A stretch of DNA of 64,000 nt from positions 250,524 through 314,523 of the forward strand of contig ML213529.1 of assembly GCA_004369045.1 (NCBI GenBank), written 5' to 3'. Shown one piece after another: positions 28,401-63,525 of the stretch. A model generated the notes under the pieces. It did no database searches and was not told the DNA's origin. It saw only the letters and a list, made by a program, of their open reading frames with translations. Position 1 is the first letter of the stretch; every line of letters starts with the position of its first letter. This DNA is from Heliocybe sulcata. Its lineage: Eukaryota; Basidiomycota; Agaricomycetes; Gloeophyllales; Gloeophyllaceae. Made by a program: the position numbers and the translations under genes.

Positions 28401-28467
28401 GCTGAATGTGTCTTGCTGCGAACTACACTTCCTCTCTGAATCAACAACACTACAAAGTTCAGCTCTA

Positions 28468-35190: not shown

Positions 35191-35194
35191 ACGT

Positions 35195-35740: not shown

Positions 35741-35848
35741 TCCAGCAGTAATCCCAGTTTACCCATAACTCAAAGTCCCAAGGCCATCCCCAACTCGTGT
35801 GATAAGGGCGACAAACGAAGTTCGCGGGGCACGGGGCATGACTGCGCC

Positions 35849-39599: not shown

Positions 39600-39782
39600 G
39601 TCGACCAATCGTGGTAATGTCATGTGGCATTGGTCGGGCGGTAACGTCACGTGGCGTCCGTCGGGGTCACATCGACTTGTTATGTTGGCCACACGCTGGG
39701 TCAACGCCATCAGGAAAGAGGCATATGCGTGCCATCACTGTCGCCCAGTTCGTACCCTTTATTCAAGCCAACAGTCGCGCCG

Positions 39783-41661
39783 ATGGAGCCGATCCCTCTT
39801 GAGTTCAAGATGCCAGTGGAGGTTGTGGATGATTCTTGTACGACTACAATGCCTGAAGCTAGCAAGAATGACGTCCCTAGCAAGAGACGAAAGTCAGGTA
39901 GCGGCGCGGAAGTGCCCTCCAAGCAGTCAAAGGCAAACCCGAGACCGAAGACCAAGACGCAGACCAACTCACGTAACACCCAGTTTGGTACGGATGCCGG
40001 CGAGAGTGATCATGACCATAATTCACGGCCGACAAAGTTCGCTCCCGATGCACAGGTCGTTGTCTACGCTTCTCAGCGTCTCTCCTCATCTGTCGCGTTC
40101 ACACAGTCTTTCCGGCTCATCATACGCGGTGTGCATTTCTCTTTCTCTCGAGTAGTCCGTTTGTGGCTCTGACTGTTGACTGCGTACAGATAGTATCATC
40201 TCAGTACAGTGGTTTGACCGGTGTTCGGCGATCGTGTCCGACGGCATCGATCTCGTCACTAACTTGCCTCATCTTGTAGTTCTGCTCGTCAACGCCCAGC
40301 ACCTCGATGAGCACGCCTGTGTGGGACTCGCACTTCGCAAGAGAGCGCTGGACTTCTGGCTCGCCGCTGACTTTACTCAGCCAGGCATACCTTCCAGACT
40401 CAGGCTGACGCTCGACGAGACTGAGCATGCCCTGGATCTCTATCCTACTAGTCACAGCAGAGATGCCGGCCCTGCGACGAGCTCTGACCAGCACCCGATC
40501 GTGCCAGGCGCATCTCTTGGCTTCGTCACAAACCTTTCTCGCCTAGAGGAACACCATAACAGCGAGGCGCGAGTATTTGTCAAGGAGTATCAAGTCACTC
40601 GCCACGGTACCGAAGACAGCAAACGTATTCACGGTTACTTCCCGATTTTACGCGCTTCCGACGTTCATAACAATGAAGGCACGGAGTGGAAGGTGAAGGT
40701 ATCCAGTCCCAAGAAGGAACACCAATGTCGGCTCCTCCACGTGCTGTCTTTTGCAAGAATGGAGTACATCCATAAACTGTCTGGCGAAGAATTCATGAGC
40801 GCGTTCAACGATTGCTTCCGCTGTGCGTGTTTCCCGAACAGTTCACACGTTCCGTGCCGTGCTAATGTCACTTGCAGGCCATGGCCATTCCTGGCTGAAC
40901 GGCATTCACCACCAAGACATCTGCCCGAACAATCTACTGTTCACCTGCGTGGGCGGGTACGTGGTTGGCGTCTTAAATGACTTGGAGATGTGCATTGTCC
41001 GCAGAGACAGCAGTTCTCCTGAATATGAACGGACTGATACCGCCCTGTTTATGGCTTATGCCCTACTACGGGCGTTTGGAACGGGCGACTCGGTTGCGCA
41101 CCTCTACGGTACGTCCCATTTCGGATTTGATTCTGGCGGACTCAGGAGTAACTCTTTCTGCCAGAGCACGATGTAGAGTCGTTTGCATACGTGGGCCTGT
41201 GGATCTGTGCTCGCTACAAGAAGGGCGAGGTTACAGTGCACGGTGCGTATTGGGACTGGACAGACACAATTGGTCCGGATTTCATAGCGGGAATGAAGCG
41301 CGGCTGTCTGGCGGATCCTGAACCTGCGACCGAGTCACACACTAGACATTTTGCAGCCATTAAAGCTCTCACCCGGGAGGCAGACTTTTCTATAGCCAGG
41401 AACATGTATCCGGGTGTGTTTGGACCTCCCGATACGCCGAAAGCGTACTTTGAGCGCCTGCGCGGACTCTTCGATACCGAAATCAAGTCTATGGACCCGG
41501 AGTATGACGCCTATATGCAAGCGGTGGAGCGCATTATGGATGACTATCGAGTACCTTATGTACTGGGCCTTTGGCGCAGTTGGCAAGGTATGTCCATAAC
41601 CTTGTCGCCCTATTTATCAATGCCGAACATCATCTGCATAGGTGACGGACAGGTTAATTGA
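39783..41661 (+). CDS. FunK1-type protein kinase, N-terminally truncated (copy A)
   Basis: Five exons, 39783-40128, 40190-40822, 40878-41108, 41165-41587 and 41642-41661, give 550 aa with every junction in phase. Exons 3-5 have exactly the same lengths (231, 423, 20) as in copy D. The N-terminal 240-250 residues of D are missing. A relic of the D-type 5' end (RAITVAQFVPFIQA) survives just upstream at 39720-39775, directly abutting the new start. The kinase core keeps HLYEHDVESFAYVGLWI and LNDLEMC, but the catalytic loop reads HHQDIC where D has HHRDIS. FunK1 kinases are fungal-specific and poorly characterised. The ATG at 39783 is the first in frame; whether it is expressed is unknown. Confidence 0.75.
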
Positions 41662-42122
41662 TAGTTCCCTCTTGTCAAGACGATTGCAGTAGTACCCGTT
41701 GTGTCCTCCTTGCTACATTGCCCAGTATTCATTGCATTGGTACTCTTCGGACCCAGTCACGTGTAGCTATATGAAAGCAGGGGAGGTAGGCCACCGCAGA
41801 ACATGGCGTTTTCACGCACCCATTTGTTACTTCTCGGAAGTGGACTTCACGCGTCAACGGAGAGAGCACATCGACCGTTTCAGTCGCGCCAGTTCGGCCT
41901 GTCGTTTACTTGACTAACAGTAGTGACTGGCTAGGGCAGATCCATCCACCATCCCCGGGATACCTACAAGAGCAATCTAATATTGTTCAATGCACCTCAG
42001 CCAAACTGCCAATTCTTCACGTGGGCCGTTACCCTCCCGAGGAGGAGTGCATTATGATGATTATAGACACAAGGGGCGCTCGAACATGCACCACCGCAAA
42101 ACCCCAATCATTCGCCTCTGCA

Positions 42123-44110
42123 TTATACTGCACACCGATAGCTTTGTCTCCCCTCATACCAAACCCCCGCTTCTGACACTCCACAGCCGTGTTCGCCCAC
42201 CGCCTCGGTACGTCCGGGTCGTCTTTCCACATGACGGGTTGATAGAAGATCTATCACAAAGGCAGGAGAGGATGTGAGGACCGAACAACGAGGACAAGGA
42301 AGAGGAGGTAAAAGCAACAAAACACATACCCCGTGAGTGAGGGCGTGTCGCGGGTCAGAGTAAATAGGGCGGCAAGGTTGTGGACATACCTTGCCAACTG
42401 CGCCAAAGGCCCAGTACATGAGGTGCTTGGTAGTCCTCCATAATACGCGCCACCGCCTGCAAATACTCGTCATACTTCGAGTCCATAGACTTGATTTCGG
42501 TATCAAGGAGCCCGCACAGGCGCTCAAAGTACACTTGAGGAGGTTCAAGAGGTGCCTCCTGGCGGCTAGACTGTTCAACACCTCTCTCGTCAGCCCTGCT
42601 TATACAACGGCTTGCCTCCAGCGTGAGAGCCATAATGGCTGCAAAGTGTCCAGTGTGTGACTCGGTCGCAGGTGCGGGGCGCGTCAGATGGCCGCGTTTC
42701 AGTCCCGCTATAAAGGGTGGAGCGACTGTGGCCATCCAATCCCGGTATGCACCGTGCACTGTAAGCTTGCCTTCCTTGTAGCGAGCACAGATCCACAGGC
42801 CCACATACGCAAACGACTCTACGTCGTGCTCTGGCAGGAAGAATTACTCCCGAGTCCGCCAGAATGCAATTCGAGATGGGACATACCGTAGAGGTGCGGG
42901 ACCGAGTCGCCCTTCCCGAGCGCCAGTAGGAGGGCATAAGCCATGAACGGGATGGTACCAGTCAGTTCATATTCAGGAGAACTGCCGTCTCTACGGACAA
43001 TGCACATGTCCAAGTCATTCAAGACACCGACGACATGCCCGCCCACTCGAGTGAACAGTAGATTGTTCTCGCAGATGTCTCGGTGGTGGATGCCAATTAA
43101 CCAGGAACGGCCATGGCCTGCAAGTGACATTAGTACGGCAGGCAAGGTCTGAGCCGTCGAGGAAACACGCACAGCGGAAACAATCGTAGAACGCGCTCAT
43201 GAACTCCTCGTTGGACAGTTGATGGATGTACTCCATTCTTGCAAAAGACAGCAGGTGGAGGAGCCGACATCGATGTTCCTTCCTCCTAGGCCGATATACC
43301 TTCGCCATCTGCTCAGCGCCGTCATCGTTATAATCGTCGGGTGTGCGTAAAACCGTCGAATGACCAGGAAGACGTTCGGTATCATCGTCATCACCACGAG
43401 CGACTTGATACTCCCTTGTAAATGCTCGTGCCTCGTCGTTGTGGTGCTCCTCTTTGCGAGAGACCTTTGTGACGACGCCGAGAGACATGTCTGGCGCAAT
43501 CGAGTGCTGGTCAGAGTTTGTCGTAGGCGCAACGTCCATGCTGTGGGTCAAAGAACCGAGGCCCAGCGGAGGCGGTGTTTCGTCGAGCCTCGCACTGGCT
43601 ATGGGGGGCAAATCTGGCCGAGAAAGGTCGGTGTAGGGCTGGCGGTCCTGCCCTCTCTTATTCTCGCGGAGGCACTGAACGATATCGAGCAGAACCACAA
43701 GGTAGTCCGCGACGAGGTCGATGCTATCAGATGCGATGATGGAACACCTGTCAATCCACCACAGTGAGACGGCACTATCTGCATGCCGTGAACTGTCAGA
43801 ACAAGAGTTCGAGTACTAGTCAGAGAAAAAATAATCGCGCACCGTGCATGATGAACTGGAAAGATTGATTGATCGCGAGAGACGATAAGAGACGGTGGGA
43901 AGCGTAGGAGACGACCTGCGCATTGGGACTAGGGTCGTGATCACTCTCGTCGACGCTCATTCCGAACTCAGCGGTACGCGAGTTGCTCTTCGATCCCGGG
44001 TATGTCTTTGACCTCTTGAAGGGCACGAACGCATCGCTACCGGCCTTATGTTTCGTACCATTTGCACCACTCTTGCGCTCTGCAGGCACCGTATTCCACG
44101 GCATGTTCAT
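42123..44110 (-). CDS. FunK1-type protein kinase (copy B)
   Basis: Exons 43843-44110, 43173-43778, 42887-43117, 42390-42830 and 42123-42250 join in phase, giving 557 aa. It starts MNMPWNTVPAERKSGANG and carries the catalytic loop HHRDICENNLLF, LNDLDMC, TGTIPFMAYALL and HDVESFAYVGLWICARYK. Exon 4 is 18 bases longer than in A and D. The last exon is uncertain: the in-phase frame reads DLLSTRHVERR, but a second frame of the same exon (42029-42250, PDVPRRWANTAVECQKRGF) looks more protein-like and is also kept in the other arm. Upstream (44.11-44.22 kb) TLYKLLLSLDTPAGRQEKT suggests a lost 5' exon. It pairs with copy C across the palindrome. Confidence 0.7.
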
Positions 44111-44629
44111 GACCCTTAATCAAGCCTGCAATTCGAGAGGGATCGTCTTCTCCTGCCTTCCTGCTGGCGTGTCCAGGCTAAGGAGTAACTTGTAGAGGGT
44201 ATCAGCTACTTCTGGTTCCGTGAGCGCCGAGGCACCCTATACCAGCCAATCCGTACCCGACCAGGGAAACGTCTTCAAGTAATGAATGATACAAGCATAG
44301 CAGAGTGGGTTGACGGCGTTGACTGGACTGCGTTGAACGAGACAGTACTCTTGTCTGATTCGTTCTGATTCGTTGCAGAAGAGATTGAGAAGAGATGCGG
44401 AAATTGCCGGCAAAGACCCGAACCTCAGTGCCTTCTCAGCTCAGTCGCAAGGAGTATAGACGGTATAAAGTGTCTACAGCTCGGTCACATCGACCATACT
44501 AGACAATACGATGCGTGGTAGGGAGGCGATGTACCAAGTGGCATGACACCGTTCAGTCTCTGGCATACTTATATATCGATCATACCCTTGCAAGTGCATC
44601 AAAGACACACCCTGCCAGGCCTCGTACTT

Positions 44630-44960
44630 CCCAAGGTAAACAGACACCTCCTGGCTCTTCGACTGTCCTCGTCATATGCACGGCGTTGGTGATAAAATGC
44701 GCCTGGTACACTCAAGAATGCCATGGTCCCGCGCTGCATCTTCCCGCTCACGTCTATCGTCTGCTCGCCCTCCCTTCTACATGGCTCCCAAACACCGCGT
44801 ACACACTTGCCCGTCTCCCAGTCCACTTTGTAGGTCAGGGACTGTCGACGGAGCAGACGTACCAGTGTATCCTGGCCATGAAGCTCAGGAATGTGCGGGA
44901 CATACAAGAATAGGAGTCTGACTCTGCCAAACACTCCTCTTCTACGTTCCGAGCGATCCT
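44630..44960. other. Segment present only in the left arm
   Basis: Flanking bases match 58.12-58.26 kb of the right arm on both sides (GCATCAAAGACACACCCTGC to the left, GGGATAGCTAGAAGAGCAGG to the right), but about 330 bases between them have no counterpart there. The minus frame contains the protein-like stretch TYKVDWETGKCVRGVWEPCR; I do not recognise it. It is either an insertion in the left arm or a loss from the right. Confidence 0.55.
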
Positions 44961-47900
44961 AGGCCTCGCTTTAGACACTTAGCCCCACGGGATAGCTAGA
45001 AGAGCAGGTTGGATTGGGAGCGATGCAGGAGGAGTATCGTCTAGCTTACAATTCAGATACTAGTCAGCTGTCCCAGTGCGCTGAGGAAGGAGGGTACCGA
45101 TAACCGACTGAACTTGGCGTCGCGCTCAAGAAAGGTCTGTAATCGAAACTGTGGGCCGGAACGGAGTTCTCCGACACACGTCCTCGAGATGCCCAAGACA
45201 TTAAGCGCCGTTGGTAAACGTCTTCGTATCAAGAAACTTGAAGAGATCTTGGGCCCGTACACGCGAAGAAGACGATAGATGTCGACCACGGGAGGGACAG
45301 GAAGGATAGATGATTGCTTGAGGCCCAAGGGCGCTGACATCGGGCAACACGTCGGGACACCTGATAGTCGGGAGAGTAGGGATGCGTATATGAATAGACA
45401 GGCCTAGAGGACGTAAAGTTACTGTGGAACAGGAGGTATGAAGGACGAGGGTGTCGGTGCCGAGCGTCGCTTCAGTGAAACAGTCTCCAATGTGGTCGGC
45501 CAACATGATTTGGAAATGCGGTATTGATCTCCACCGGTGGAACCACCACCACGACTCGCCGGACAAGGACTGGGCCGTTCTCCAGGAGCGGGATTTACGG
45601 TAGAGAACAGCTCACTTAGTAAACCGGGGCATGATCGGCGGAAATGACTACCACAGCATGGCCATAGAAGAGATTGCGCACCAACGTGAACCTGTCAAAG
45701 AACGTCAGGACACCAAATACGACGTTGACCTGACGCACGGTAGCTCATAATGCCGACTCTGAGTTAGGCCCCATCTCGTTCGAGTGAGGCCCAACAGCTG
45801 GGCATTTCGCATGGAATAATACAGTCTGCCGCACGGCCCTCACTGATCCAATTGTGCGTGTTGCGCGAAGGGAGTGGTGTGAAAAGCGACCTAAGAATAC
45901 CGCGTCGGCGGTCAATAAAGGCAGGGACGAAGAAGAACACGCAGCAGGCGGACCATATGAGGCTGAAGAGGCCGTCTGTGTACGGTCAGTACGCAGGGAC
46001 GGGTGTCGCACGCATGAAAACTTACAGGGTGGGATAGAGGAGCGCATGTTCCTCTTGCGTTGTTCGTCGTATTACAGACCGCGCTCAAAAGCACTGCAGG
46101 GTGTACAATTAGTGACACAGTCGCGTGTCTCAACATTCAAACACTCACCTGCAAGACGTTATTGACACCTACGATGCGCGCATGGTGAGAACAAAACACG
46201 GGCTGTAAGAGCGCAAAGGCCGAAGTTATCTCAGAGACAGAAGTCGAAGCACACGCCGCAGTCTGGATCCTGCTTCCTGATACGCGTCGACCCCGCCTTT
46301 CACGCTGCCTTGCATTCCGATAGCCTGGTGGAGGAAGGAGAACACGTTGAGCGGGACCGAGGTCGTTACCCGACCTTCTTCTTTTCCACGCATCCCCCAT
46401 CCCGCTGCTAGCCGACCCGCACCGCTGGCCGAGCAGTACCGCACGCATAGCTAACGTCTCCAGAAACGCACTCAGAGATTCGTTTCCATGCGTCTGCCTG
46501 ATGCAACCCTACTCCATACACCTTGGTAATCGCAGGGAAGGCCTTTCCATGACGAGAATACGTTCCATGTCCATAAAACACACTTCCATTCGAATAGAAA
46601 TAGAAGGAAAGACAGCCTATAAGTATAATCATAAAAGCGACCTAGTGACTGCTCACGAAAAGAAGTCGATCCCGCCGGTGCCCCAGTATTTTGCTCACGA
46701 GGCGTACGGTGCCTACCCTGATGACCAGAGCAGTGATAGCCGACGCGCTTTACGTGATGAGTACTGGACAGCCTGGGCGACGTTGTTTCCCGATAACTTC
46801 CTGGCTGTTGAACGCTGCAGAAATCCCTGCATGCAAGAGTTAGGATCGACGTCAGAAGCGGAAGACTTTGAATGGATGTTAAGTGCTCTCACTCATGCTG
46901 GAAGGCATGCATGATACTCCCCAGGCGATTTATTGGTGGCGGAACAAGAGCAAAACTCAAACGCACCCATCCCATTGTAGAGGCACCGACGATCGATCCC
47001 CATACTTCCCACAAACATAGTGAAATGGAAAGGTACACTCTCTCGTCTACGTCACCCTGAGAGCGTGACTTTTAATCAACCAGGAGGTGTTAGACTAGGC
47101 CGTCTTCGTATGCAGGAAAGCCGGACTTACCGGATTCCAAGGCACCTACAACCGCACAGCTTGAGGCAGTGTACCCTCGGGAACTGCTTGCAGCGGGATT
47201 CGACGTCGCAAGGTCATAGACTCTTACTTGCCTCGACAAATCAGATATTGCGACCGGAATTAGACTCACAACATGGTCGGCTAGGATAACCTCAGAATGC
47301 GAGAGCGGAACAGGTGAAGGTTTGGAAGACGTATCGCTTAGCTATCCCGGGATGCACAGCAACGGTATCACGACTTGACTTTGATCTCCAAGTTCCATTG
47401 TCCTCGGTCGTCACAGCTGTTCGTCAGGCATGGGGGACGCTGCTAGACATGGTCGGCTAGGATAACCTCAGAATACGAGAGCGGAATGGGTCAAGGTATC
47501 GCTTAGCTGCACAGCCTGTCCCGGGATGGTATCACGACTTGACTTTGATCTCGAAGTCCCATTGTCCTCGGTCGTCACAGCTTTTCGTCAGGCATGGAGG
47601 AGGCAGCGTGTTTCTTCTTCCACCGTCCGAACGGATGAGGCGATGCGTCGCTAGTTTTTTTCCCAGCGGGAGTACGCTGGAAACCGGGCGAATCGAGATG
47701 GTATGGTTAATGTATCTGCCGGGAAGACGAGACAAGGCAATGAGTCGTAGACCCGCTCTCTGCCGTGTTTACTCCAGAGCTCAGCGGGAAGCGGAACGGA
47801 CGACTGATCACTTGACAAGAGTCCAAAGGTTCGGACTAGTCTGACCTGTGCTGAGAAAGATTATCATTCCCTGACAGAGAAAGGTCCGTGCCGACGTGGA

Positions 47901-49935
47901 TCGGACCAGCTTCGGCAACTGGACACGATATGAGGTGGTCAGACTCGATTGAATGCAAGGCTGTCCCGTCCGCTCGGGAGCAGGAGAACATGTTGGAATA
48001 TGAGGAGTGCTAGTGTAGCCTAGTTGATCGAGAACACTGTGAACGGACTCGGAGAAGGGCAACGTTCCAGGACTTTGGGATGCAAAGAATACAGGTCTCC
48101 ATCGAATCCGAAATCTAGTGAGCACAACAAAGCGCAAAAGAATGAATGATCAGAGTTCGACATATGGATCGGTGCGCGTCGGAGAAGGTAGGGCTCTCGC
48201 CTACCATGGTTGGGCCATTGCAATACGGACGTTATCCTGAGTAAGATCCAAGCCCGTTCACGCTTCATGCTGCTCGGCAAAAGTCAGGACTATTGTGCTG
48301 AACGATAGGTATAGATGTCTCTTACCTGTAAGTATCATACTAACTTACACGGCCTCTGGGGTATATCTGGCGTATTCAAGTGAGCCGTGGTCAATATGAA
48401 CGTGCTGGTAGGAATTACGGGGCGCTTGCCTTGGCGTTCTTCGAGCTCTACGACGGACAGCGGCGGACTCTTCAGTTCAGCAAGTGGCATGCCTCCCGCG
48501 ATTTCGACAGGCGTCCCCACACACGCACGGAACGATCCTTTGCGACTACGCACTCTAGAAATCTAGGGTGCTTCAGACTAATCAGTAACCACAAATCCAA
48601 ACCGTGGACCGTTGCCTGCCATCATTTCGTTGAGCCCAGATGACGATCTTCGCCGACACACAGCGTAAAGACCTTGCTGATATCGACATGTCTGCATCGG
48701 GTTCGCTAAAAGTGACGGGACGAAGCAACCGCCGCGCTTCTTTGACGGCTAGGCAGAAGGTGAGGATCCCAGCGATCTGCGCTGTCGAGCACCGTCACTC
48801 GTGGGGACTGGGGGATGCATTGCGAGTACCTGCACACAACGTACTGTGCGTCGCAAGACATGCTGCGACTCGGTTAGACGTGCGCATTCGCTTGGGTCGG
48901 ATGGAGGTCGAGATTTAGAGGTAGTCCTGTTGTTCGGACTGGCATGGCGTCGGGTAGAGATGGACTGTTTGGAAGGAATAGTGAAGGAACGTCTGGGGTG
49001 ACATCAACGTACGAGGGCCATTACATCCACGGCCACAGAGGCTGGCCTCAACATTCACGATAGCAAAACAACGACTCCGCAATGCGGCGGAAGCAGAGGC
49101 GCCCTATTTGTCCATATTTGTCCCAAGTTCTAATCCCGATGCATGCCCGCATCCAATGTCCATCCTCCTGCTCAAGTGCTTCGTTCTGTTCTCCCTCATG
49201 ATCATATCCAGCATAGGCCTCTATCTGGAGAACTCCTCTGCATCCGCTGTCATCGCGAGAAGTCTCAGAAGACTCGGGCTTAGTGCTCCACTGGACAGAA
49301 TCATGATGTCGAATTCGTATGACGCCGGAAGGCAATGACCGCTGTAAACTCTCAAGATCTGAAGCTCAAGCTCAAGCCCGCAAATACCGATAGGAGCCTA
49401 GATCACTGCTGAGACTGCGCGCTCGATAACCCTGGCCAGCCTCACCTTCCCACACAATCTCACGCTTCTCTTGCGTGGAACGCCAACCTTGGCCGGTGAG
49501 TAATCTCCTCGTGCCAGCCCATTCCCTGATAAGTAACTCTCGGTTCCGCCCCTTCTTGATTCGAGAAACCCGCCATGAGGCTAATCTTACCTTATCCCAG
49601 TTCGCACTAACGACGTCACGCATCGAAACTTGCCGCGCTATCTCTGGTTCATACCGACGAAGAACTGTGGCGATAGCCGCTGGTAATACCGCGAAACGTA
49701 CGTACGCATCGCAATGCCTGGGTCCAGCGCTAGGCCGTTTCAAGTTCCCGGCGGTCCTTGTTGAACGTCGAACTCAGAGTGTGGCCAGCAAAAACATCAC
49801 AGGCGATAGCGGAAGCAAGCTTGCCTGCTTGGCTGACTTCACAGGATTGATGGCCCGCGTCCTGCTCTGCATACGTCTAGGCTTGCAGGACGCTGCAACC
49901 TATTCCTGCCGCCTCATCCAAGCCCTCGACGCGAC
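44961..49935. other. Interior of left arm: decayed, unassigned
   Basis: Five kilobases without a gene model I can support. Short stretches conserved with the right arm read like protein, for example minus-strand 45053-45340 (TALNVLGISRTCVGELRSG), 46408-46632 (AITKVYGVGLHQADAWKRI) and 49372-49743 (EWAGTRRLLTGQGWRSTQ). They lie in different frames and break often. They may be relics of one or more host genes duplicated with the arm. Confidence 0.4.
47271..47620. repeat. Two-copy tandem repeat, unit about 175 bp
   Basis: The unit beginning ACATGGTCGGCTAGGATAAC at 47271 starts again at 47446, and both contain the block CATTGTCCTCGGTCGTCACA followed by TTCGTCAGGCATGG. Two diverged copies of that block also exist in the right arm (about 55.07-55.10 and 55.64-55.67 kb), so the duplication probably predates the inverted duplication. 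Confidence 0.7.
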
Positions 49936-52555
49936 GCAGCCGGCCATTGGTTGACGAACACGTCGATATAGGACCACGGGATGGACTGGGAGGGGGGTGT
50001 GGTGGATGCGTGGAGATTGTAGCTCCACGTCACTTGTTCAATGCGCCTAACTTTAGCTGGACTGAGAATCACAGAAAGAGTGGCCCACGGCATATGATCG
50101 TGGTCGTCCGATTTAACCCAGCGCGCGACGTCTCTTCATGCCTAATGCAAATGCCTCGAGAACACAAGAAGGTAAAGGATGCATATTCATAACCGCATAC
50201 ACAGAGAGGAGAGGGGAGAAAATAATGCATACGCATAAGGCCTATAGTAACTTTTACGACCCCAAACCCGAAAGCAAGACATAGACGAGCGAATAAGAAT
50301 GCCGGTACGTATAGTACAATATGAGTAGTGAATGCGTGGTACTGTTACAATGCGAGAGATAAGTAACATCCTGTCCAATCCAAACCAAGCGCACAAAAGA
50401 ACGCGAGGGGCACCCCGCCAGCGGCCGACCCACTCACCAAACCTCACCCTTCAACGTTACCGCTTCACGCCTTCTCAAACACAAGCCTCCCAACCGCCCC
50501 CCCTCGGCTCTTATCCATCTCAACACCCACCAAGCGCGTCTTCTCTCCTAACCAATCCACCCGCCTCACACCCCCCTCCCACCCCCCGCCCATCCTCGCA
50601 CACCGCTTCTCATACGCCCGCGTCACCCGCCTCTGCGCCCTGCTCCCCCGCCCCAGCGCCTCCCACTCCCCCGGCGTCACCCGCGTCAGCAGCGTCGCAT
50701 GCAGCGCGTACAGCACGTCCAGGTTGCTAATCGCCCCGGACCCGGACCCGCACCTGGATTTGGAATTGGAGGCGCCCACGACGACCGCCCACGGGAACCG
50801 ATCCGACGTGAGCACGAGCTGCGAAGCCGTCGACAAAGGCGGCTCCGTCGCGGGCTGCGTCAGCGTGTGCGTCGGCACAGCCTCGCGCGTCTTGCTGTCC
50901 ACCACCGTCCGCGCCGACGGGGTATACACCACGTCATACGAAATAGGCGCGTGGTGGAACCGCGTGTGCGCGAGGAGCGGGTGCATGTTCAACGGCGCGT
51001 GGATCGGGGCATCTGCAATACATTTCGTGAGATTGTCAGGACGCGGGACTAGGTGGGATAGGGAGGAAGATGGAAAGGAAACGCACGGGCGGAGGCGGAG
51101 CCGGGGTGCCACGAGTGGTTCTGCTTCAGCGGCGGCCGCTCGTCGGCGTACCGCACGCGTTTCGCGGGCTTGGGCACCGGCGCGGCCGAGTGCGGGAACC
51201 CGGGGTGCAGCGACGTCGACGAGTTGGAGCGCGAGCTCGCAGGCGTCGAATACGCAGATCTACTCGTCGAACTCGCAAAGTAGGGGTAGTGCACGGCTGG
51301 AGCGAGCGAGCGAGAATCAATATTCCAAATTCCGCACGGGAAAAGTTCAGAGTGGGGACGTACCACCGTGGCTTCCGTGTCTTTTGACCGACGGGCGGGG
51401 GTCGACGGGGATGGTCGGGTGGGGCTGGTGCGAGTCGTACCGGAGGGGCGAAGGGCGCGTCGACCGAGGGGCCGCGTACGAGTTGGCGCGCGGTCGCGCT
51501 GGTGCGGTACTCGGCCGTTGCTGGGCGTACGCATACGCAGGTGTAGTAGCGCTCTGGGATCGGCTATGTGTCGGCCGCCGAGGCTGAGGCTGGCCATGGT
51601 GGCCCGCGCCGAACATGTTGCGCAGATAGGAAAGGTAAGAGTCCATGGAAAGGTCGTAAGGCAGTCGTGCAGGGGTCGTAAGCGTAAACTTCGAGGTGGT
51701 GAGACCTCTGGTGTTTGTGGGTTGTGGCTCGAGGTTTTATGGATGTATGCGCGGGATCTGGATGGGCCTGTCGCGAGGTGGAGTGGTCGGGCTGGCGTTC
51801 TGGATCCCGCCTGGGAGGCACTGCAGCGAGAACGCCCCCCAAAAGCAGACCATCAGGAGAGTACGCAGAATGAGGGGCAAGTACGTGACGATTTGTCCGG
51901 GGCTTTGGTAATGACCAATTGGCGAGCTGCTGGGGAAGTTGGCGGATGGCGTAAACCCTCGTCGATCGTCATTATAGCTCCCGGCGTTGGTTCGCGAAGA
52001 TTGCTTACCTATTCAGGCTGACTCGTGTACACCACGTGTTTGCTCTGTCGCTCGTTCTTCCGCTCTCTCGCGCTATGAATACACGAAAGTCCGTCTAATA
52101 ATGCTCGCAGTAGTTTCAGGCTGCCAGCAAATCATAATCCCGGTAATACCCGCCTTTCTCGCAGAGCTGATGGCAATGAGGCGCGAACCATTGGGGCCAG
52201 GAAATTTGGCAGGTGCGGGGGGCGGGTGTTCCATTTGGAAACACTGTGGGAGAAGCCTATCGGACTGCGAGCTGAGACGCCGGATGCCCGAAGTGACGGC
52301 ATTTGGAGACGACGAGATGCCACCACAGCAATCAGTACTTTCTTGTGAGACGGATCTGAGATATCGCTGCCCAAGATCGCATGCGATCGCTCCGCCTGCT
52401 ACAAGGGACGCACAAAGGGAGTTACTCTGTCTCTTCCGGACACGACGGCATAGGAGGCCCAGACAGATGCGCGGATCGCGGGCCAACATTGTCCGCCAAA
52501 ATAAGACAGAGAGTGTCCAAGTACGAGAATACTCATCAGAAAATAGGCATCAATC
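49936..52555. other. Unique spacer of the palindrome
   Basis: About 2.6 kb between the two arms with no self-complementary partner that I can see. It holds one DUF6699 gene on the minus strand; its flanks (49.94-50.46 and 51.65-52.55 kb) contain no recognised gene. Confidence 0.6.
50465..51646 (-). CDS. DUF6699 domain protein (palindrome spacer)
   Basis: Exons 51364-51646, 51087-51296 and 50465-51012 (introns 67 and 74 bases) join in phase to 346 aa. The N-terminal half is low-complexity (SRSQSATTPAYAYAQQRPST, many Pro/Ser/Ala). The C-terminal half is DUF6699: FPWAVVVGASNSK, then LDVLYALHATLLTRVTPGEW, a helix with AQRRVTRAYEKRC, and the signature GGVRRVDWLGEKTRLVGVEM. It is the second member in the window but differs clearly from the one at 7.7-9.0 kb. 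Long open frames on the opposite strand here are shadows produced by high GC. Function unknown; it is the only gene recognised between the arms. Confidence 0.85.
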
Positions 52556-52559
52556 CAGG

Positions 52560-55500
52560 GCCATGACCGAGGGTGCAGCCAGAATAGTTTCGACACAACG
52601 GTTCGCCAGCACGCCTAGACCTAGAGCAGTTGCACGACAGATCGCGAGCTGTGGTATGCCAGCCATCACCGCACGCAGCCTGTGAGAGCTCTGCTGTGCC
52701 CAGCCATTGAGAGCATAAAGCACGCAGGCCCGCTTCCCAAGGCGCAGCTCGCTTATCGCCTGCGAAGTATGCCACACGCTCAGCTGAGCTCAACAAGGAC
52801 CACCGGCATGTTGAAACGGCCTAGCGCGGACAATCTCCACGTCCAGCAGAGGGCAGGAAGTGTTCGCCAGCGACCCTTGCAGTGCTGAAGCGACAGCTCT
52901 GGACCCAGGCATTGCGATGCGTACGTACGTTCCACGGTATTAGCAGTCCCTATCGCCACAGTTCTTCTTCTGCATGAACCAGAGATAGCGCAGCAAGTGT
53001 CGATGTGACGTCGTTAGGGTGAACTGGAATAAGGTAAGATTAGCCTCATGGCAAATGAAAGAAGGGGCGGAACCGAGAGTTACTTATCAGGGGAATGGGC
53101 TGGCACGAGGAGATTACTCACCGACCGAGGTTGGCGTTCCACGCAAGACAGTCGTGGGATTGTGTGGGAAGGTGAGGCAGGCCAGGTTTATCGAGCACGC
53201 AGTCCCAGCAGTGATCTAGGCTCCTATCGGTATTTGCGGGCTTGAGCTTGAGCTTGGGATCTTGAGAGTTCACTGCTGTCATTGCCTTCCGGCGTCATAC
53301 GGATTCGACCTGAGAAGATATCATGGCGAAGCACTAAGCGGAGTCTTCTGAGACTTCTCGCGACGACAGCGGATGCGGAGTTGTTCTCCAGATAGAGAGG
53401 CCTATGCTGGATATGATCATGAGGGAGAACAGAACGAAGCACTTGAGCAGGAGGATGGACATTGACCATCGGGATTAGATTGGCACAAACATGGACAAAT
53501 AGGGCGCCTCTGCTTCTGCCACATTACGCAGTCGTTGTTTTGCTATCGTGATTCGTGAATGTTGAGGCCAGCCTCTGTGGACGTGGATGTAATGGTCCTC
53601 GTTGACGTCACCACAGCCATTTCCTCATTACTCCTTCAAGACAGTCCTGGCAGTCCATCTCTACCCGACGCCATGCCAGTCCGAACAACAGGACTACCTC
53701 GACTTCGCATGAGCTCCGTCCGAGGTACCCAGGTGAATGCGCACGTCTAACCGAGTCGCAGCAAGTACGTCGTGTGCAGCTATCCATCTCATCTCCCCAA
53801 CAGGAATACTCGCAATGTATCATCCAGTGCCCACGAGTGATGGTGCTCGACAGCGCAGATCGCTGGGATCCTCACCGGTCACCTTCTGCCTAGCTAGCTG
53901 TCAAAGAAGCGCGGCGCTTGCTTCGTCCCGCCGCTTCTTTGAGGAGCTAACGCTTCTCGAACTTATGTCGATAGCGGAAGGTCTTTACGCTGTGTGTAGG
54001 CGAAGATCGTCGCCTGCGCTCGTATCTGCGTAAACGAGATGATGGCAGTCAACGGTGCACGGTTTGGATCTCTGACTGCCCATGGCTCTAACGTACCCTC
54101 GATTTATGGACTGCGTGGGCTCGAGTTTGCGCGAAGGATCGTTCTGTGCGTGCGTGGGGACGCCTGTCGAAAATCTGAGGAGATGGGAAGAAGGCATGCG
54201 TCCTGCCTCATTCGGGAGCCCGCCGCTGTCCGTCGTAGAGCTCGAAAAACGGCAAGGCAAGCCTCCCGTTGTTTCTACAAGCACATTCGTATTGACGACG
54301 GCTCGCTTGAATACGCCAGATATACCCGAGAGGCGGTGTAAGCTTACAGGTAAGAGACATCTAAATTCTTCGTTCAGCGCGATAGTCTGAACTTGCCGAG
54401 CATCATGAAACGTGAACGCGCCTAGATTCTACTCAGGATACGTCCGTATTGGAATGGCCCAATCATGGTAGGCGAGAGTCCTATCTTCTCCGACGCGCAC
54501 CATCAAGGCAGCCGATTCCGTGTCAGCAGAGAAGTGAACGTCGAACTCTGCCCTTTGTTGTGCTCACTGGATTTCCGATTAGATGGAGACGTGTATTCTT
54601 TGCATCCCCAAGTCCTGGAACGTTGCCCTTCTCCACGTCTGTTCACAGGCTTCTCGATCGACTGCTGCTCTTCCGAGTTTTGAGTACGTGTTCTGCGCCC
54701 GAGCGGACGGGACAGCCTTAAACTCGACACTCGAGTCTGACCACCTCGCATCGTGTCTAGCTGATCCGGTCCCCGTCGGCACGAATCTTTCTCTACCAGG
54801 GAAACTAATCTTCTTCAGCACAGGTCAGTATAGAAGCTTTCGACTCTAACCAAATCATCAGCGCTCAGCGCTCAGCACGCAGTTGAAGCCTTCGCCCGTT
54901 CCGCATCCCGGTGAGGGCAGGTCTACCACTCATCGCCTTGTGTCGTCTTCCTAACCGTAGTGCCTCGATTCGCCCGGTTTCCAGCGTACTCCAGCTGGGT
55001 GAAAAGCTAGCGAAGCATCGCCTCATCCGTTCGGACGGTGGAAGAAGGAACACGCTGTCTCCTCCATACCTGACGAAAAGCTGTGACGACCGAGGACAAT
55101 GGAACCTGGAGATCGAGTTCAAGTGGTGGTACCAGTGCTGTGCATCCCGGGATAGCTAAGCGATACGTCTTCCGAACCTTCACCTGTTCCGCTCTCGTAG
55201 GTCTTTCCGTCAACTAGGCCATATTCCAGTGACCGCATGTCGAGCCCTGGAGCCTTTTTCGCGCTCGAGTCTCGCATTCAGGACTAGTCGATCCAAGCCA
55301 CCTATCGTGTCGACGTGCGAGGAAGTGCTGAGAAGCTGGTCCCCTCCACGCCGGCACGAACCTTGGTCTACCGTGGGTCGCAGCGAGCACCATCCATTCC
55401 ACTCAACTTGCCAGTCCCCGGTGTCTCCCGTGCGTTCAGCAGGAGTAACTCGGAGGAGGCGGCTCTACCTTGCTTCCTAGCTGATGGGCAAACCGCTTGT

Positions 55501-58500
55501 CTAGCTTCGCACTGTCTCTTCCATAGTCATGCTAGGCGTATAGAGTTCGCTGTCGCCTCCCAGCTGGCTAGGAAGCTAGCGACGCATTGCCTCGTCCACG
55601 ACTCTATCAGAAGGACCGCTCGGCTTCCTCCATGCCTGACGAAGAGCTGTGATGACCGGGAACCATGGACTGGAGATCGGATTCAAGTGGTGGAACACGC
55701 GCGCGTCGTATTAATTCGACCCTCCATTGCTGTGCATCCCGGGACAGGCTGTGCAGCTAAGCGATACCCTTCACCTGTTCCGCTCTCGTATTCTGAGGTT
55801 ATCCTAGCCGAGCATGTCTAGCAGCCTGGTCGTGAGCCTAATTCCGGTCGCAATATCTGATTTGTCGAGGCAAGTAGGAGTCTATGACCTCGCGACGCCG
55901 AATCCCGCTGCAAGCTGGTCCCGAGGATACACCGCCTCGAGCTGTGCGGTTGCATGGTGCCTTGGAACCCGGTAAGTACGGCTTTCCTGCATACGAAGAC
56001 GGCCTTGGTTGAACGCGAAATCACGCTCTCAGGGTGACCTCGACAGGAGAAAGTATACCCTTCTATTTCACTATGTTTGTGGAAAGTACGGGATCGATCG
56101 TCGGTGGCTCTACAACGGCATGGGTGGGTTTGAGTTTTGCTCTTGTTCCGTCACCGATACAACACATGGGGAGTATCATGTATGCCTCCCAGTAGGATTG
56201 AGAGCAATTAACACGTTGGCGTCCATTCGAAGTCTTCAGCTTCGGGCGTTGATTCTAACTCTGGTATGCAGGGATTTCTGCAGTCAGGAAGAACAACGCT
56301 GGCGGTCGCTCAGACTTCCGAGTATTCATCACGTAAAGCGCGTCGGCTATCACTCTTAAACACTGTGCCTCGTGAGCAAAATACTGGGGCACCGGCGGGA
56401 TCGACTTTTTTGCGTAAGTGGCGACGACACCAGGACGCTGTTATAACTTACATTTCTAGGCTGTTTTACCTTCTATTCGAATGGAAGAGCATTTCATGGA
56501 CTTGGAACGCATTCCAGTCATTTTCAGATCGTGAGGCTTTCATGCCTGCTATTGATGATTACCAAGGTGTAGTATATAGTGGCATTGCTCTCCGCGTCTC
56601 TGGAGACATAGCGAACCCGTTAGCTATGTACATTTGCGTGCGGGACGCTCGGCAACCGATGGCCTAGGCAAGGGGAGCAGTGCAGGTCGGCTAGCAGCGG
56701 GATGGAGGAAGCGTGGAAAAGAAGAGGTCGGGTAACGACTCGGTCCCGCTCAACGTGTTCTCCCTCCTCCACCAGGCTATCGGAATGCAAGGCAGCGTGA
56801 AAGGCGGGGTGGACGCTTATCAGGAAGCAGGATCCAGACTGCGGCGTGTGCTTCGACTTCGTCTCTGAGATAACTTCGGCCTTTGCGCTCTTACAGCCCG
56901 TGTTGTGTTTTTTCACTTACGCGCATCGTAGGTGTCAATAACGCCCCGCAGGTGAGTGTTTGCATGTTGAGACACGCGACTGTGTCACTAATTGTACACT
57001 CTGCAGTGCTTTTGAGCGCGGTCTGTAATACGACGAACGACGCAAGAGGAACACGCGCTCCTCTGTCCCACCCTGTAAGTTTTCATGCGTGCGACGGTCG
57101 CGACCGTCCCGTCCCTGCGTACTGGCCGTACACAGACGGCCTCTTCAACCTCATCCGGACATGATCAGTCCGCCTGTTGCGTGTTCTTCCTCGTCCCTGC
57201 CTGCATTCACCGCGGACGCGGTATTCTTAGGTCGCTTTTCACACCACTCCCTTCGCGCAACGCGCACAATTGAGTCAGTAAAGCCCGTGCGGCAGGCTGG
57301 TGATTCCACGTGAGTGCGTAGCTGTTGGGCTCACGTCTATCGACTTGGCATGTTGCACAAATGAGATGGGGCCGCATTATGAGCCAAGGTGCGTCAGGTC
57401 AACATCGTATTTGGTGTCTTGACGTCCTTTGACAGGTTCACGTTCGTGCACAATCTCCTCTATGGCCATGCTGTGGTGGTCATTCTCGCCGATCATGCCC
57501 CGGTTTACTGAGTGAGTTGTTCTCTACCGTAAATCCTACTCCTGGAGAACGGCCCAGTCGTAGCCCGGCGAGTCGTGGTGATGGCTCCACCGGTGGAGAT
57601 TATACCCGCCTTCCAGGTCGGAATGCTTGCCGACCACACTGGAGGCTCCCGTCCACCCAAGCGACACTCGGCACCGACAGCATCGTCCCTCATGTTGCGC
57701 GGTAACGTCCTACTCTAGGACTGTTTCTTCGTATGCGCATCACTACCCTCCCGACTATCAGGTGTCTCGACGTGCCGCCTGATGTCAGTGCCCCTGGCCC
57801 TCAAGCAGTTATCTATCCTTCCTGTCACTCCCTTGGTCGACATCTGTCGTCTTCTTCGCGCGTACGGGCACAAAGTCTCTTCAAGTCTCTTGATATGCAG
57901 AAGGTTACGAACGGTACTTGATGTCTTGGGCGTCTCGAGGACGTGTGTCGGAGGACTCTGTGCCGGCTCACACTTTCGATTACAAACCTTTCTTGAGCAC
58001 GACGCCAAGTTCAGTCGGTTATTGGTACTCTCCTTTCTCAGCGCACTTGGGCAGCTGAGCATCTCAAAATGCGAGTTACACGCGGATCCTGCTCCTGTAT
58101 CGTGTCTGACTCAACCTGCTCTCCTAGCTATCCCGCAAGGCTACATGACACGGCGAAGACTGGGATTTCTCGAGGGCGGAGTGTGTCTCTGATGCATTTG
58201 CAAGGGTATGATTGATATCCGTGGCCCTATAAGTATGCCAGAGATTGAAAGTTGTCATGCCACCTTAATCCCCGTCGCCTGGCCTCGCCAACATACATTG
58301 TATCGTCTAGTGTGGTCGCTGTCTCCGAGCTCTGTATACTTTTGTGTCGTCTCCGCTCCTTGCGATCCTGCTTGAGCTGAGAACGTGAGCGAGAAGACGA
58401 CACCGAACGAATGCTGAATGCCGCAGAGGAGAGGGGCACGACTACCCAAGAGTAGTGTCTCGTTCAACCCAGTGCAGTCAACGCCGTCAACCCACCCTGC

Positions 58501-58680
58501 TATGTTTGTATCGTTCATTGCTTGAAGAAGGTTCCCAGGTTGGGTAAGGATTCGCTAGTATAGGGGTGCCTCGGCGCTCATGGATCTAGAAGTAGCTGAT
58601 ACCCTCTACAAGTAACTCCTTAGCCTGGACACGCCAACAGGTAGGCAGATAAAGATGATCCACTCGAATTGCAGGTTTCA
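52560..58680. other. Interior of right arm: decayed, unassigned
   Basis: Counterpart of 44.2-49.9 kb. Plus-strand protein-like stretches mirror the left arm, for example 53048-53245 (EWAGTRRLLTDRGWRSTQ), 56009-56220 (YGIDRRWLYNGMGGFEFC), 56450-56667 and 57782-58080 (TVLDVLGVSRTCVGGLCAG). No continuous gene model can be built and I do not recognise a family. Confidence 0.4.
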
Positions 58681-58687
58681 TAAGGTC

Positions 58688-59906
58688 ATGAACATGCCAT
58701 GGAATACGAGGCCTGCAGAGCGCAAGAGGGCTGCGAATGGTACGCAGCACATGGCCGGTAGCGACGCGTACGTGCCCGTGAAGAGGCCAAAGACAAACCC
58801 GGGATCGAAGACCAACTTCTGTACCGCCGAGGCTGACATGGACGTCGACAGCAGTGACCATGGTCCTAATTTACAGCCGATCAACTCGTCTCCCAATGCG
58901 CAGGTCGTCTCCTACGCTTCCCAGCGTCTCTCATCGTCTCCCGCGATCAAACACTCTTTTCAGTTCGTCATACACGGTGTGCACTTATTTTTCTTTGAGT
59001 AGTACTCGAACTGTTGTACTGACAGTTCGCGGCATGTAGTTAGTGACGTCTCACTATGGTGGCTTGACCGGTGTTCGGCGATCGTGTCCGGCAGCATCTA
59101 TCTCGTCACCGACTTGCCGCACCTTGTACTTCTGCTCGTCATGTCCCAGCGGGGTGTAAACCGCTTGTTTGGCAACAGAGCTCTTCTCCGCTGGCCAGGC
59201 GTCGACCTTACTCAGCCAGGCATACCTTCCTTACTCAGAGCGACGCTCGACGAGACTGAGCATACCCTGGACATCCTTCCTTCTAGTCACGGAACAGATG
59301 CTGGTCCTGCGACATGTCCCGACGAGCACCCGATCGCGCCAGGCATGTCTCTCGGCGTCGTCGCAAACATCCCTCGCACAGAGGAGCACCACAACGACGA
59401 TGTGCAAGCATTTGCAAGGGAGTATCAAGTCGCTCGTGGTGATGACGATGATACCAAATGTCTTCCTGGTCATTCACCGGTTTTACGCACATCCGAGGAT
59501 CATAACGATGAGGGCGCTGAGCAGATGGCGAAGGTATCTCGGCCTAGGAAGGAACACCGATGTCGGCTCCTCCACGTGCTGTCTTTTACAAAGATGGACT
59601 ACATCCATAAACTGTCCAACGAGGAGTTCATGAGCGCGTTCTACGATTGTTTCCGCTGTGCGCATTTCCTGGACGGTTCAGACCTGCCCTGCCGTACTAA
59701 TGGCATTTGCAGGCCATGGCCGTGCCTGGTTAATTGGCATCCACCACCGAGACATCTGCCCGAACAATCTACTGTTCACCCGCGTGCGCGGGTATGCGAT
59801 CGGCATCTTGTACGACTCGGAAATGAGCCTTGTCCGTAGACACGCCAGTTCTCCTGAATATGAACGGACTGGTACCATTGGAGGAAGCGAAGGAGCAGAG
59901 AGCTGA
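58688..59906 (+). pseudogene. FunK1-type kinase lacking its C-lobe (copy C)
   Basis: Exons 58688-58976, 59040-59657 and 59713-59906 join in phase to a 366-aa frame, the partner of copy B. It keeps the N-terminal part (MNMPWNTRPAERKRAANG), the kinase N-lobe, the catalytic loop HHRDICPNNLLF and LYDSEMS. It then runs from GTIG straight into unrelated residues and a stop. Relative to B, roughly 0.6 kb is deleted at about 59.88 kb, removing the segment from FMAYALL through HDVESFAYVGLWI and beyond. The sequence after the deletion again matches the 3' tail of B. Without the C-lobe it cannot be an active kinase; a regulatory dead fragment is possible but unsupported. Confidence 0.7.
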
Positions 59907-60603
59907 CCCGCGGTACGTCCTCACTGACGGGGTATGTGTCTCGTTGCTTTTACTTCCTCTTCCTTGTCCTCGTTGTTCGGTCCTCACAACCTCTCCTGCC
60001 TTTGTGATAGATCTTCTATCAACCCGACATGTCGAAAGACGACCCGGATGTACCGAGGAGGTGGGCGAACACGGCTGTGGAGAATCAGAAGCGGGGGTCG
60101 GGTATGAGGCGAGACAGAGCCATCGGTGTGCAATATAATGCGGAGGCGAATGATTGGGGTTTTGCGGGGGTGCATTTGGGCGGTCCTTGCGTCTATAATC
60201 ATCCATAATGCACTCCTCGTCGGGAGGGTAACGGCCCATGTGAAGAATTGGCAGGTTGGCTGAGGTGCATTGAGCAATATTAGATTGCTCTCGTAGGTAT
60301 CCCGGGGATGGTGGATGGATCTGCCCTGGCCGGTCACTACCGTTGGTCAAGTAAACGACAGGCCGAGAATGGCGCCACTGAAACGGTCGGTGTCCTCTCT
60401 CCGTTGATGCGTGAAGTCCACTTCCGAGACGTAACAAATGGGCGCGTGAAAACGCCATGTTCGGCGGTGGCCTACCTCCCCTGCTTGCATATAGCTATAG
60501 GTGACTGCGTCCGAAGAGAGCCAGTGCAATGAATTCTGGGCAATGTAGCAAGGAGGACACAACGGGTAACTACTGCAATCGTCTCGACAAGAAGAGGGAA
60601 CTA

Positions 60604-63266
60604 TCAATTAACCTGTCCATCACCTATGCAGATGATGTTCGGCATTTGTAAATAGGGCGACAAGGTTGTGGACATACCATGGCAACTGCGCCAGATGTGC
60701 AGTACATGAGGTACTTCGTAGTCCTCCATAGTACGCTCCACCGCTTGCATATACACATCATACTCTGGGTTCATAGACTTGATTTCGGTATCGAAGAGTC
60801 CGCGCAGGCGCTCAAAGTACGCTTTCGGCGTATCAGGAGGTCCCGCCACGCCCGGATGCATGTTCTTGACTATAGAAACGCTTGCCGCCTCGGCGAGAGC
60901 TTTAGTGGCTGTAAAGTGTCCAGTGTGTGACTCGGTCGCAGGTTCGGGGCGCGTCAGACAGCCGAACTTCATTCCCGCTATGAAATCCGGATCGATCGTG
61001 TCTGTCCACTTCCGGTACGCACCGTGCACCGTGACCTCGCCGTTCTTGTAGCGAGCACAGATCCACAGGCCCACATACGCAAACGACTCTACGTCGTGCT
61101 CTGGCGGAAAGATTAACTCCTGACTCCGCCAGAATAAACTTCGAGATGGGACGCACCGTAGAGGTGCGCGACTGAGTCACCCGTTCCGAACGCCCATAGG
61201 AGAGCAGAGGCCATAAACGGGATGGTACCAGTCCGCTCGTTTGCGAGAGAACGGCCTTCGGCATGAATGACCGACAAGTCGAAGTCATTCAAGACGCCAA
61301 CGACGTGCCCACCCCTCCTAGTGAACATCAGATTGTCCTCACTGATGTCACGATGGTGGATATCGTTTTGCCAGAGAACACCATGGCCTACAGGAGTCAT
61401 TAGCAAGCCAAGGAAGGTCTGAACCGGCCCGATACACTCACAGCGGAAACAATCGTAAAATGCGCTCATGAACTCTGCGCCAGAGAGTTTATAAATGTGT
61501 TCCAAATGTTCAAATAAGAGTACGCGGAGGCGGCGAAAACAGCGCCTTTTCCCATCCCTGGATATGCCCAGGATCTTCGTCATCCGTTCAGCATATTCGT
61601 CGTCAAAATCGGCCGAAGCGCATAAAATCGGTAAATGACCGCGAACATGTTTTGCGTCTTTGTCACCGCTGCACGCTACACCATACGCCCTTGCAAGTAC
61701 CCGCACCTCACTTTCCCGTCGTTCATCCGGGTGATAGATCTTGGCGACGAACTTGGAAGAGGAGTCTGGCAGGGTCGGGTGCACATCAGAGCTTTCCACA
61801 TCGATAACGTCCGTGGCACGACCAAAGAGATGGAGTGCCCTGGCATGCTTAGCTTCCTTCAGTGTTACTGTGATTGAACGTGCGTCTGGCGTGGCAAGGT
61901 CGATCTCGAGCTCGCCGTCAGGCGTTTTGCGAAATACGCGATTAGAACCCCAAGCGTGCTCGTCGAAGCGTCGGAGGATATCTAGAACGACCACCAGGTA
62001 CGGTAGATTGGTGATGAAATCGAACCCGCCGGATCTGATCGCCGAACACCGGTCAAACCACCACAGCGAGATGACGCTATCTGCTCGTGGTCAACCGTCA
62101 GAAACACAGGTGGCCAACTGAAAAGAACCCGAAGTGCGCACTGTTTATGATGAACTGGAAAGAATGGTTGATCGCGACCGATGATGAGAGGCGCTCGGAA
62201 GCGTAGATGGCGACCTGGACGTCGGGAGACACCTTCGTCGGCTGTTGATCAGGGTCCCTCTCGTGGACGCCTATCTCGTACTGAGCAGTGCGCAATTCGC
62301 TCTTGCTCTTGCTCTTGCTCTTGCTCTTCGTCTCCGGTCCCTCTCTCGACTTTGACTTCTTGGAAGGCACATCCGCGCCGCTACCTGACTTTCGTTTCTT
62401 GCCAGGAACGTCATTGTTGCTAACTCCAGGCATCGTAGTAGTCCCAGATACATCCACGTCCCCCTCTGCTATGTTGAACTCGAGAGGGATCTGCTCCATC
62501 GGCGTGTCTGTTCGCTTGAATTCCAGACTAACTAGCGTTTTGTCGAAGGCAGGGGCTTTTTCCGATTTCTTGAGCGCCGGGCCAATCCTATGCTTCTCCC
62601 AGAGATCATCCCAATTCTCACCGGGCGCCAGCTGCAGTTCAGCAGCTTCTTTGACAGTAAGAAGAGCATCACGGAGCATTAATCCCACTACATCAGGCTT
62701 GCGTTTGGTGGTCTCCGCGAGGAGGCAGCCATCGGCGCCTACGTGTTCTGAAAGGATTTCCGTCGGGTCATTGCACTGGAAGACCAATTGGTTCTCTTGC
62801 CCAGAGGCGGGGGGAAGACAGGCCACTGACGTCGGATCACGCCTCGTCTTCTTGATAGCCAGAATGGTGTTAGCCAATTTGCAGAAGGGAGCGTATTCTT
62901 GTTGTTCCGTCTTCGTTTGACGACTGGAAGAATTAGACCAAGGATAATGAATCAAAGAGAGATGACGTACAATTCGGCCAGTAACTCCTGGAGCCCGTGT
63001 ATCTTTCCTCCGATACTGTCCTCAGGGGAGGCACTTCTGGCCTGGTTGGCGATGGGAAGCGTTTTGTGTTCATTGCACATTATAACAGCATCCAGGAGTA
63101 ACTCGTCGAGGATGGACTCGAGTTCCACCTTGTCCTTTTCTTTCGTTTCCGTGAAGAGGCTCAGGAGGAAAAGGAGGAAGGTTCGGACAGACACGTCCTC
63201 AACGTGTTTCTTCATCTGCTCTTCATAGTATGGTCTTACCTGTTTAACCCTATATTTCGGAGGCAT
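60604..63266 (-). CDS. FunK1-type protein kinase, complete (copy D)
   Basis: Six exons, 62971-63266, 62142-62923, 61442-62080, 61157-61387, 60678-61100 and 60604-60623, all in phase, give 796 aa. A helical N-terminal region of about 280 residues is followed by a basic linker with a KSKSKSKSKS run encoded by a hexanucleotide repeat. Then come the split FunK1 kinase domain: SLWWFDRCSAI, KFVAKIYHPDERRESEVRVL (candidate ATP-binding Lys), HHRDISEDNLMF (catalytic Asp about 586), GVLNDFDLSV, RTGTIPFMASALL and EHDVESFAYVGLWICARYK. It ends CHGDGQVN. A further upstream exon (to about 63420, NTRTFTTGQFVPFIAW) is possible since copy A retains its counterpart, but no good splice site links it. It is probably the parental, functional member of the quartet. 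Confidence 0.85.
62299..62328. repeat. (GCTCTT)5 hexanucleotide repeat in copy D
   Basis: Five perfect units inside exon 2 of copy D, encoding alternating Lys-Ser. The other three copies lack it at the matching position, so it arose or expanded in D alone. Confidence 0.9.
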
Positions 63267-63432
63267 GAGGTTTATGACGAATCGTCCTCCAAGCGATGAA
63301 GGGTACGAACTGGCCAGTAGTGAAGGTGCGCGTATTTCGTTTGCCCGGTGGCGTTGACTGGATCGGGTTCGACGGGTTCAACGAGGCTGCAGACCCGGGG
63401 GGCGTGGTGGGCGGTTCCATCTGTACTCGAAG

Positions 63433-63470
63433 AGCGTGTGGGCAACGTCGAAGCGTGTGGGCAACGTCGA
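63433..63470. repeat. Perfect 19-bp tandem direct repeat
   Basis: AGCGTGTGGGCAACGTCGA occurs twice in a row close to the outer edge of the right arm. The matching place in the left arm (about 39688-39706) has a single related unit (GTTGGCCACACGCTGGG in reverse sense). Confidence 0.85.
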
Positions 63471-63525
63471 ACGAATGGGCGCCCCCTGAGCGCGCGCGAC
63501 AACGCCACATGAGATTCCCACGATT

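Follow-up and report, generated by a model that had tools for sequence, protein, structure and literature searches.

A layered palindrome of FunK1 kinase copies in Heliocybe sulcata, probably an old inverted duplication patched by gene conversion

The window analyzed here, a stretch of 64 kb of the Heliocybe sulcata genome, carries a large palindrome whose arms hold four copies of a fungus-specific kinase gene of PF17667, which we take to be the FunK1 family (Pkinase_fungal). Positions preceded by w are those of the window, and C27 is the scaffold that carries it (window = C27:250524-314523), in an assembly of 31.6 Mb and 51 contigs. Its FunK1 kinases, its DUF6699 proteins and the shortness of its introns fit a basidiomycete that forms mushrooms. 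The palindrome is probably an old inverted duplication whose arms have been diverging and were patched by ectopic gene conversion, that is, a real genome structure and not a product of misjoined haplotypes. In such a history, an ancestral block formed by a gene that we call S, the kinases FunK1 A and FunK1 B and about 5 kb of noncoding DNA would have been duplicated in inverted orientation next to a DUF6699 gene, presumably through copying or template switch in break repair. A dispersed fifth copy (A'') may then have overwritten the 5' 2.5 kb of the right-arm kinase A', B-type sequence may have replaced a large share of the kinase part in A, and the remaining sequence of the arms would drift apart. 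This history would not require the palindrome itself to have a selected function.

The comparison of the window with itself by BLAST gave collinear inverted matches between w39761-49808 and w62521-52754, the four long pieces having E = 0, which confirms the large inverted repeat claimed in a preliminary description of this DNA. The dimensions proposed there (24 kb, arms of 10-11 kb, spacer of 2.6 kb) have to be enlarged: the palindrome runs from w37832 to about w65743 (about 27.9 kb, the right end lying 1.7 kb beyond the window end), its arms measuring 12.0 and 13.0 kb and its spacer about 2.9 kb (w49809-52753). The missed part is an outer block at w37832-39592 that recurs reverse-complemented at w63981-w65743 (C27:314504-316266; 1.76 kb, 91.7% identical by BLAST), and just 20 bases of this second copy are inside the window. 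The edges were wrongly described as ending abruptly in unique DNA, since this gene-bearing block, about 93% alike, lies beyond each of them. From left to right, the order is S, kinase A, kinase B on the opposite strand, about 5 kb of noncoding-like sequence, the DUF6699 gene, about 5 kb again, B', A' and S'. The structure is also nested, each arm being in itself an inverted pair of two tail-to-tail FunK1 copies; on the left, w39891-41616 matches w44047-42361 at 74% by BLAST.

Among the four kinases, A' (w60130-63577, minus strand; 77.3 bits with PF17667, cut-off 24.1) is the only one with a recognizable full 5' part and with the kinase motifs (the FVAKI lysine, HRD and DFD) all kept. FunK1 A (w39761-42120, plus strand), homologous to A', is missing about 750 bp of the 5' part and presents HQD for HRD, DLE for DFD and N at the lysine column. 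FunK1 B (w42200-44660, minus strand) keeps the lysine and HRD, with DLD for DFD, and its exon at w42924-43154 scores above the PF17667 cut-off (32.1 bits). Its partner B' (w58175-59903, plus strand) is truncated, without about 570 bp of the 3' part present in B (w42359-42951 against w59879-59902); it has N at the lysine column, HRD kept and DSE for DFD. Taken alone, the first exon of each of the copies A, B and B' matched no Pfam family, and the assignment of A and B' to FunK1 was made by homology to A'. In all four copies an intron-like stretch, from GTGCGT, GTGCGC or GTGAGT to CAG or TAG, is found at the same place.

In the first kinase exon, the ratio of nonsynonymous to synonymous substitution rates (dN/dS) was 0.25 between A' and a copy on scaffold C9, 0.26 between A'' and the C9 copy, 0.55 for A-B, 0.66 for A-B' and 0.78 for B-B'. 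It was below 1 in 14 of 15 pairs, the exception (1.22) being the nearly identical pair A'-A''. Judged from their sequences, A' and A'' look constrained, like working kinases, and A, B and B' look relaxed, with A and B' apparently degenerate. The open frames of A, B and B' are a weak sign of constraint: in the pairs among them and in A-A', the probability that random change would leave no stop was 0.007-0.06 when every difference was counted and 0.08-0.26 when half of them were.

An indication of exchange comes from A'', located at C27:216656-220160, 94 kb from A' and in the same orientation (w60270-63577 against C27:216828-220160, 92.3% identical). From w63600 to about w61140 (about 2.5 kb), the identity between A' and A'' was 0.93-1.00 in all 13 windows of 200 columns; in the next six it was 0.91-0.73, with 0.43 in the last, and there A' and A were 0.87-0.93 alike. 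A maximum chi-square analysis of 641 informative sites placed the break at w61044, with 431 of 448 sites siding with A'' before it and 48 of 193 after it; none of 999 shuffles was as extreme (P 0.001, the minimum). We read the common tract, w61044-63577, as gene conversion. If A'' had simply been copied from A' at a late date, the two should be equally alike in the 3' part, and if A had afterwards overwritten A', these two should be more than 87-93% alike. The simpler reading is that A' and A'' exchanged sequence along the 5' 2.5 kb. Right at the outer border of this tract, about 400 bp of the right arm (w63577-63981) have no clear partner in the left arm.

Kinase A is also of mixed composition. 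It resembles A' at the 5' edge (45 against 9 sites, compared with B) and at the 3' end (74 against 8), and most of its kinase part leans to B and B'. Three segment trees disagree with one another, with supports of 0.948-1.0: in the middle segment A groups with B and B', and A' and A'' join the C9 copy, and in the last segment A groups with A'. Gene conversion, which the preliminary description had anticipated as a consequence of the palindrome, holds up as the simplest reading of the mosaic kinase copies, given the partner switch, the site counts and the trees; we infer that the mosaics would be its ectopic product. Diversifying selection on the N-terminal part of the kinase, where A and A' are 59-66% alike beside noncoding DNA at 91-93%, was considered and rejected as the main cause, because the trees, the site counts and the dN/dS values point to mixed ancestry.

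The global alignment of the arms gave 83.1% identity (9,028 matches in 10,862 aligned columns), and the long BLAST pieces about 78% each with gaps counted. This identity is uneven, ranging from 0.59 to 0.98 per block of 250 columns well inside the arms. The outer block reaches 93.3% over 1,744 aligned columns and the DNA between A and B 92.4%; the inner noncoding part is at 81-86% and the N-terminal parts of the kinases at 65-66%. Noncoding tails of about 90%, as first reported, are thus found in the first two regions but not at w39.61-39.76 and w63.27-63.52 (in kb), which are 66% alike. The inner noncoding identity was patchier than in column shuffles (variance 0.0071 against 0.0013, P 0.001), as was that of the outer block (P 0.001); the block between A and B (w41660-42360) was not (P 0.49). 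At w43480-43720, B and B' are just 65% alike between neighbors at 90% and 79%, a dip that has no known donor. CpG is not depleted, as in the aligned arms its observed/expected ratio was 1.03 and 1.05; between the arms, 555 CpG sites are kept and 240 have TpG or CpA in one of the arms, and there is no clear sign of a CpG-directed mutation process.

The search of the genome with PF17667 gave at least 57 merged loci from 114 hits (E <= 0.001); the profile also gives matches in 4 of the 14 genomes used as controls. The sequences of two more inverted FunK1 pairs were compared. The pair on scaffold C6 has arms at 26666-29380 and 34396-37127 (87.3%) around SEC61 (SecY, 207 bits), and they share 1,443 identical bases (C6:27363-28805 / 34969-36411) over the main kinase open reading frame. 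The neighbors of this tract that retain homology were mostly 0.66-0.86 alike in windows of 100 columns, with 0.94 at the edges and one value of 0.53, and the next best match of the identical run in the genome was 79% over 635 bp. On scaffold C15, the two members lie 16 kb apart and are 90% alike over 1,641 bp, the next relative being at 73%. A partial extra unit of FunK1 and SEC61 is present at C6:88968-93034, some 60 kb away from this SEC61 palindrome. In addition, FunK1 is crowded near some scaffold ends: 12 of the 57 merged loci are in the first 163 kb of C6 (C6:10-163 kb), and there are hits at C9:1090-1166 kb and C3:6.5 kb, one C9 hit stopping 12 bases before the scaffold end. A subtelomeric site of these crowds is a guess.

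The main alternative that had been put forward is that two diverged haplotypes of a single locus were falsely joined head to head. The arms are collinear and about 17% different, a distance between haplotypes that is reachable in very polymorphic basidiomycetes, and the examined stretch of C27 has N runs at 227563-250523 (ending exactly at the window start), 336841-338705 and 353436-354005. The 64-kb window, however, has no N base, and the flanks outside w37832 and w65743 are unrelated to each other: apart from the outer block, w25000-39600 and the DNA to the right of w63500 (to C27:354523) have nothing in common at E <= 1e-3, so that a join would call for another rearrangement exactly there. 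Furthermore, no allelic copy of the left flank (w26000-37800, 11.8 kb), the right flank (C27:316283-324513, 8.2 kb) or the spacer was found in the assembly, where other matches to them were 64-84% identical over at most about 775 bases; as common words are skipped in such searches and scores are given to the best candidates only, this absence is strong but not complete. The match of A' to a third locus at 93-100% over 2.5 kb and the two inverted FunK1 pairs on other scaffolds, one of them flanking SEC61, also speak against a join. We consider it quite improbable that the palindrome is such a join.

A selected, cassette-like system, in which an expressed FunK1 is diversified or repaired with sequence from spare inverted kinases, would agree with the single complete copy out of four, with the visible tracts and with the fully identical C6 tract that spans the kinase part. 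But the A' tract is common to the dispersed A'' and not to the palindrome partner, and the dN/dS values give no sign of selection for diversity; the idea is highly doubtful for this locus. A wider proposal, in which the lineage would keep FunK1 in inverted pairs that enclose unrelated single-copy genes, is speculative and in our view unlikely. Conversion between the members of each pair would then renew or reshuffle the kinase domains, a cassette-like route by which a large fungal kinase family could go on evolving.

Several observations weigh against an old duplication patched by conversion. The mosaic of A is not clean, since a block of 200 columns from w40062 goes back to A' (30 against 21 sites, compared with B), and the break among A, B and B' is weak (chi-square 10.9, P 0.02) and could be rate variation. 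The direction of the exchange between A' and A'' is one that we infer. Patchiness alone is no proof of conversion, because shuffling the columns takes no account of natural differences in constraint. The identical tract in C6 could partly be an assembly artifact, as C6 reads N from 38605. The excess of inverted FunK1 neighbors is suggestive and not significant (14 of 22 within 30 kb, P 0.14), in a count where the palindrome enters as one direct pair since A and B' are missing from the merged list; sequence was compared for two of the 14 inverted pairs (C6:27/35 kb and C15), the other twelve being coordinates. All of this evidence comes from assembled sequence.

The inner arms (w44950-49808 on the left and its partner w52754-58172 on the right) show no coding signature. 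No Pfam family was matched in the six frames of the left one or in the five of six frames scanned of the right one, and 15 of 73 short indels in their alignment are multiples of three. The spacer carries the DUF6699 gene (w50468-51112, minus strand; PF20415, 102.3 bits; six frames scanned), and no second copy of it was found in the assembly. Long inverted arms flanking a short unique center could suggest a giant DNA transposon, with the arms as terminal inverted repeats and the spacer as cargo. Nevertheless, the scanned frames of the inner arms and the six of the spacer contained no transposase domain (the kinase and S blocks were scanned in part of their frames), the left inner arm matched only itself and its inverted partner in the assembly, and inspection by eye of about 80 bases at each outer edge showed no obvious target-site duplication. 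We consider a transposon very improbable.

Gene S, in the outer left block (plus strand), has its ATG at w38244, a stop that ends at w39202, and introns. The start is signal-peptide-like by eye, and the product looks like a secreted protein; its first open reading frame had no match in Pfam. No tRNA, and no Rfam family at the gathering threshold, was found in the window. Just outside the palindrome, in the left flank, there is a protein kinase domain of another family (about w36409-36720, minus strand; PF07714, 29.5 bits, two of six frames scanned). Two cytochrome P450 genes lie in convergent inverted orientation at w11377-13546 and w16920-19070 (66% identical). Elsewhere on C27, 192050-195006 and 213240-216202 form a further inverted pair (82% over 3 kb); the former, the sole copy scanned, matches serine carboxypeptidase (PF00450), and the latter adjoins A''. 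A hairpin-like repeat at C27:335128-336503 (1.38 kb, self-complementary at 89.5%) has a related inverted pair of 782 bp (99.5%) around an N run at C9:1087231-1089289, with no Pfam match in three of six frames of the first and one of six of the second.

The palindrome is a known kind of structure, unusually layered. Expansions of FunK1 have been attributed to lineage-specific duplication (PMC3203195), and the excerpt of that account, which concerns the same family, does not describe palindromes or conversion. In open-licence PubMed Central (titles and starts of abstracts), no paper about FunK1 palindromes was found, and nothing that combined FunK1 with gene conversion. The locus also offers a test of how FunK1 kinases multiply, and it is a caution for phylogenies of such kinases, in which a single gene combines different histories. 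In Cryptococcus, gene conversion was suggested for divergently oriented pheromone genes by analogy with the Y chromosome (PMC12510652); those are mating-type genes, whereas no mating-type gene was identified in the scanned parts of our window.

With the palindromes of sex chromosomes (the mammalian Y and the willow W, PMC7023750), the locus shares large gene-bearing arms and gene conversion, which in willow is limited to parts of the arms (PMC7023750). Here there are two long inverted arms and a spacer, but the arms are at 83% (59-98% by block) instead of being homogenized to near-identity; this would be a palindrome touched by conversion and not one of the conversion-maintained Y type. The nearest precedent that we found is in Caenorhabditis elegans (Zhao et al. 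2007, PMC1803023), where inverted paralogous gene pairs are accompanied by homologous intergenic DNA, as in our arms, and gene conversion was proposed as one way of keeping the arms alike. One locus there has arms of 2,207 bp, 99.7% alike, and a spacer of 126 bp, in contrast to the arms of 12-13 kb, the nesting, the gene-bearing spacer and the exchange with a dispersed copy described here. Long inverted repeats are usually unstable (PMC1803023), and a fungal nuclear example of 28 kb with readable mosaic borders, together with at least two further inverted FunK1 pairs, is a natural setting in which to test how inverted duplicates persist and how they exchange sequence.

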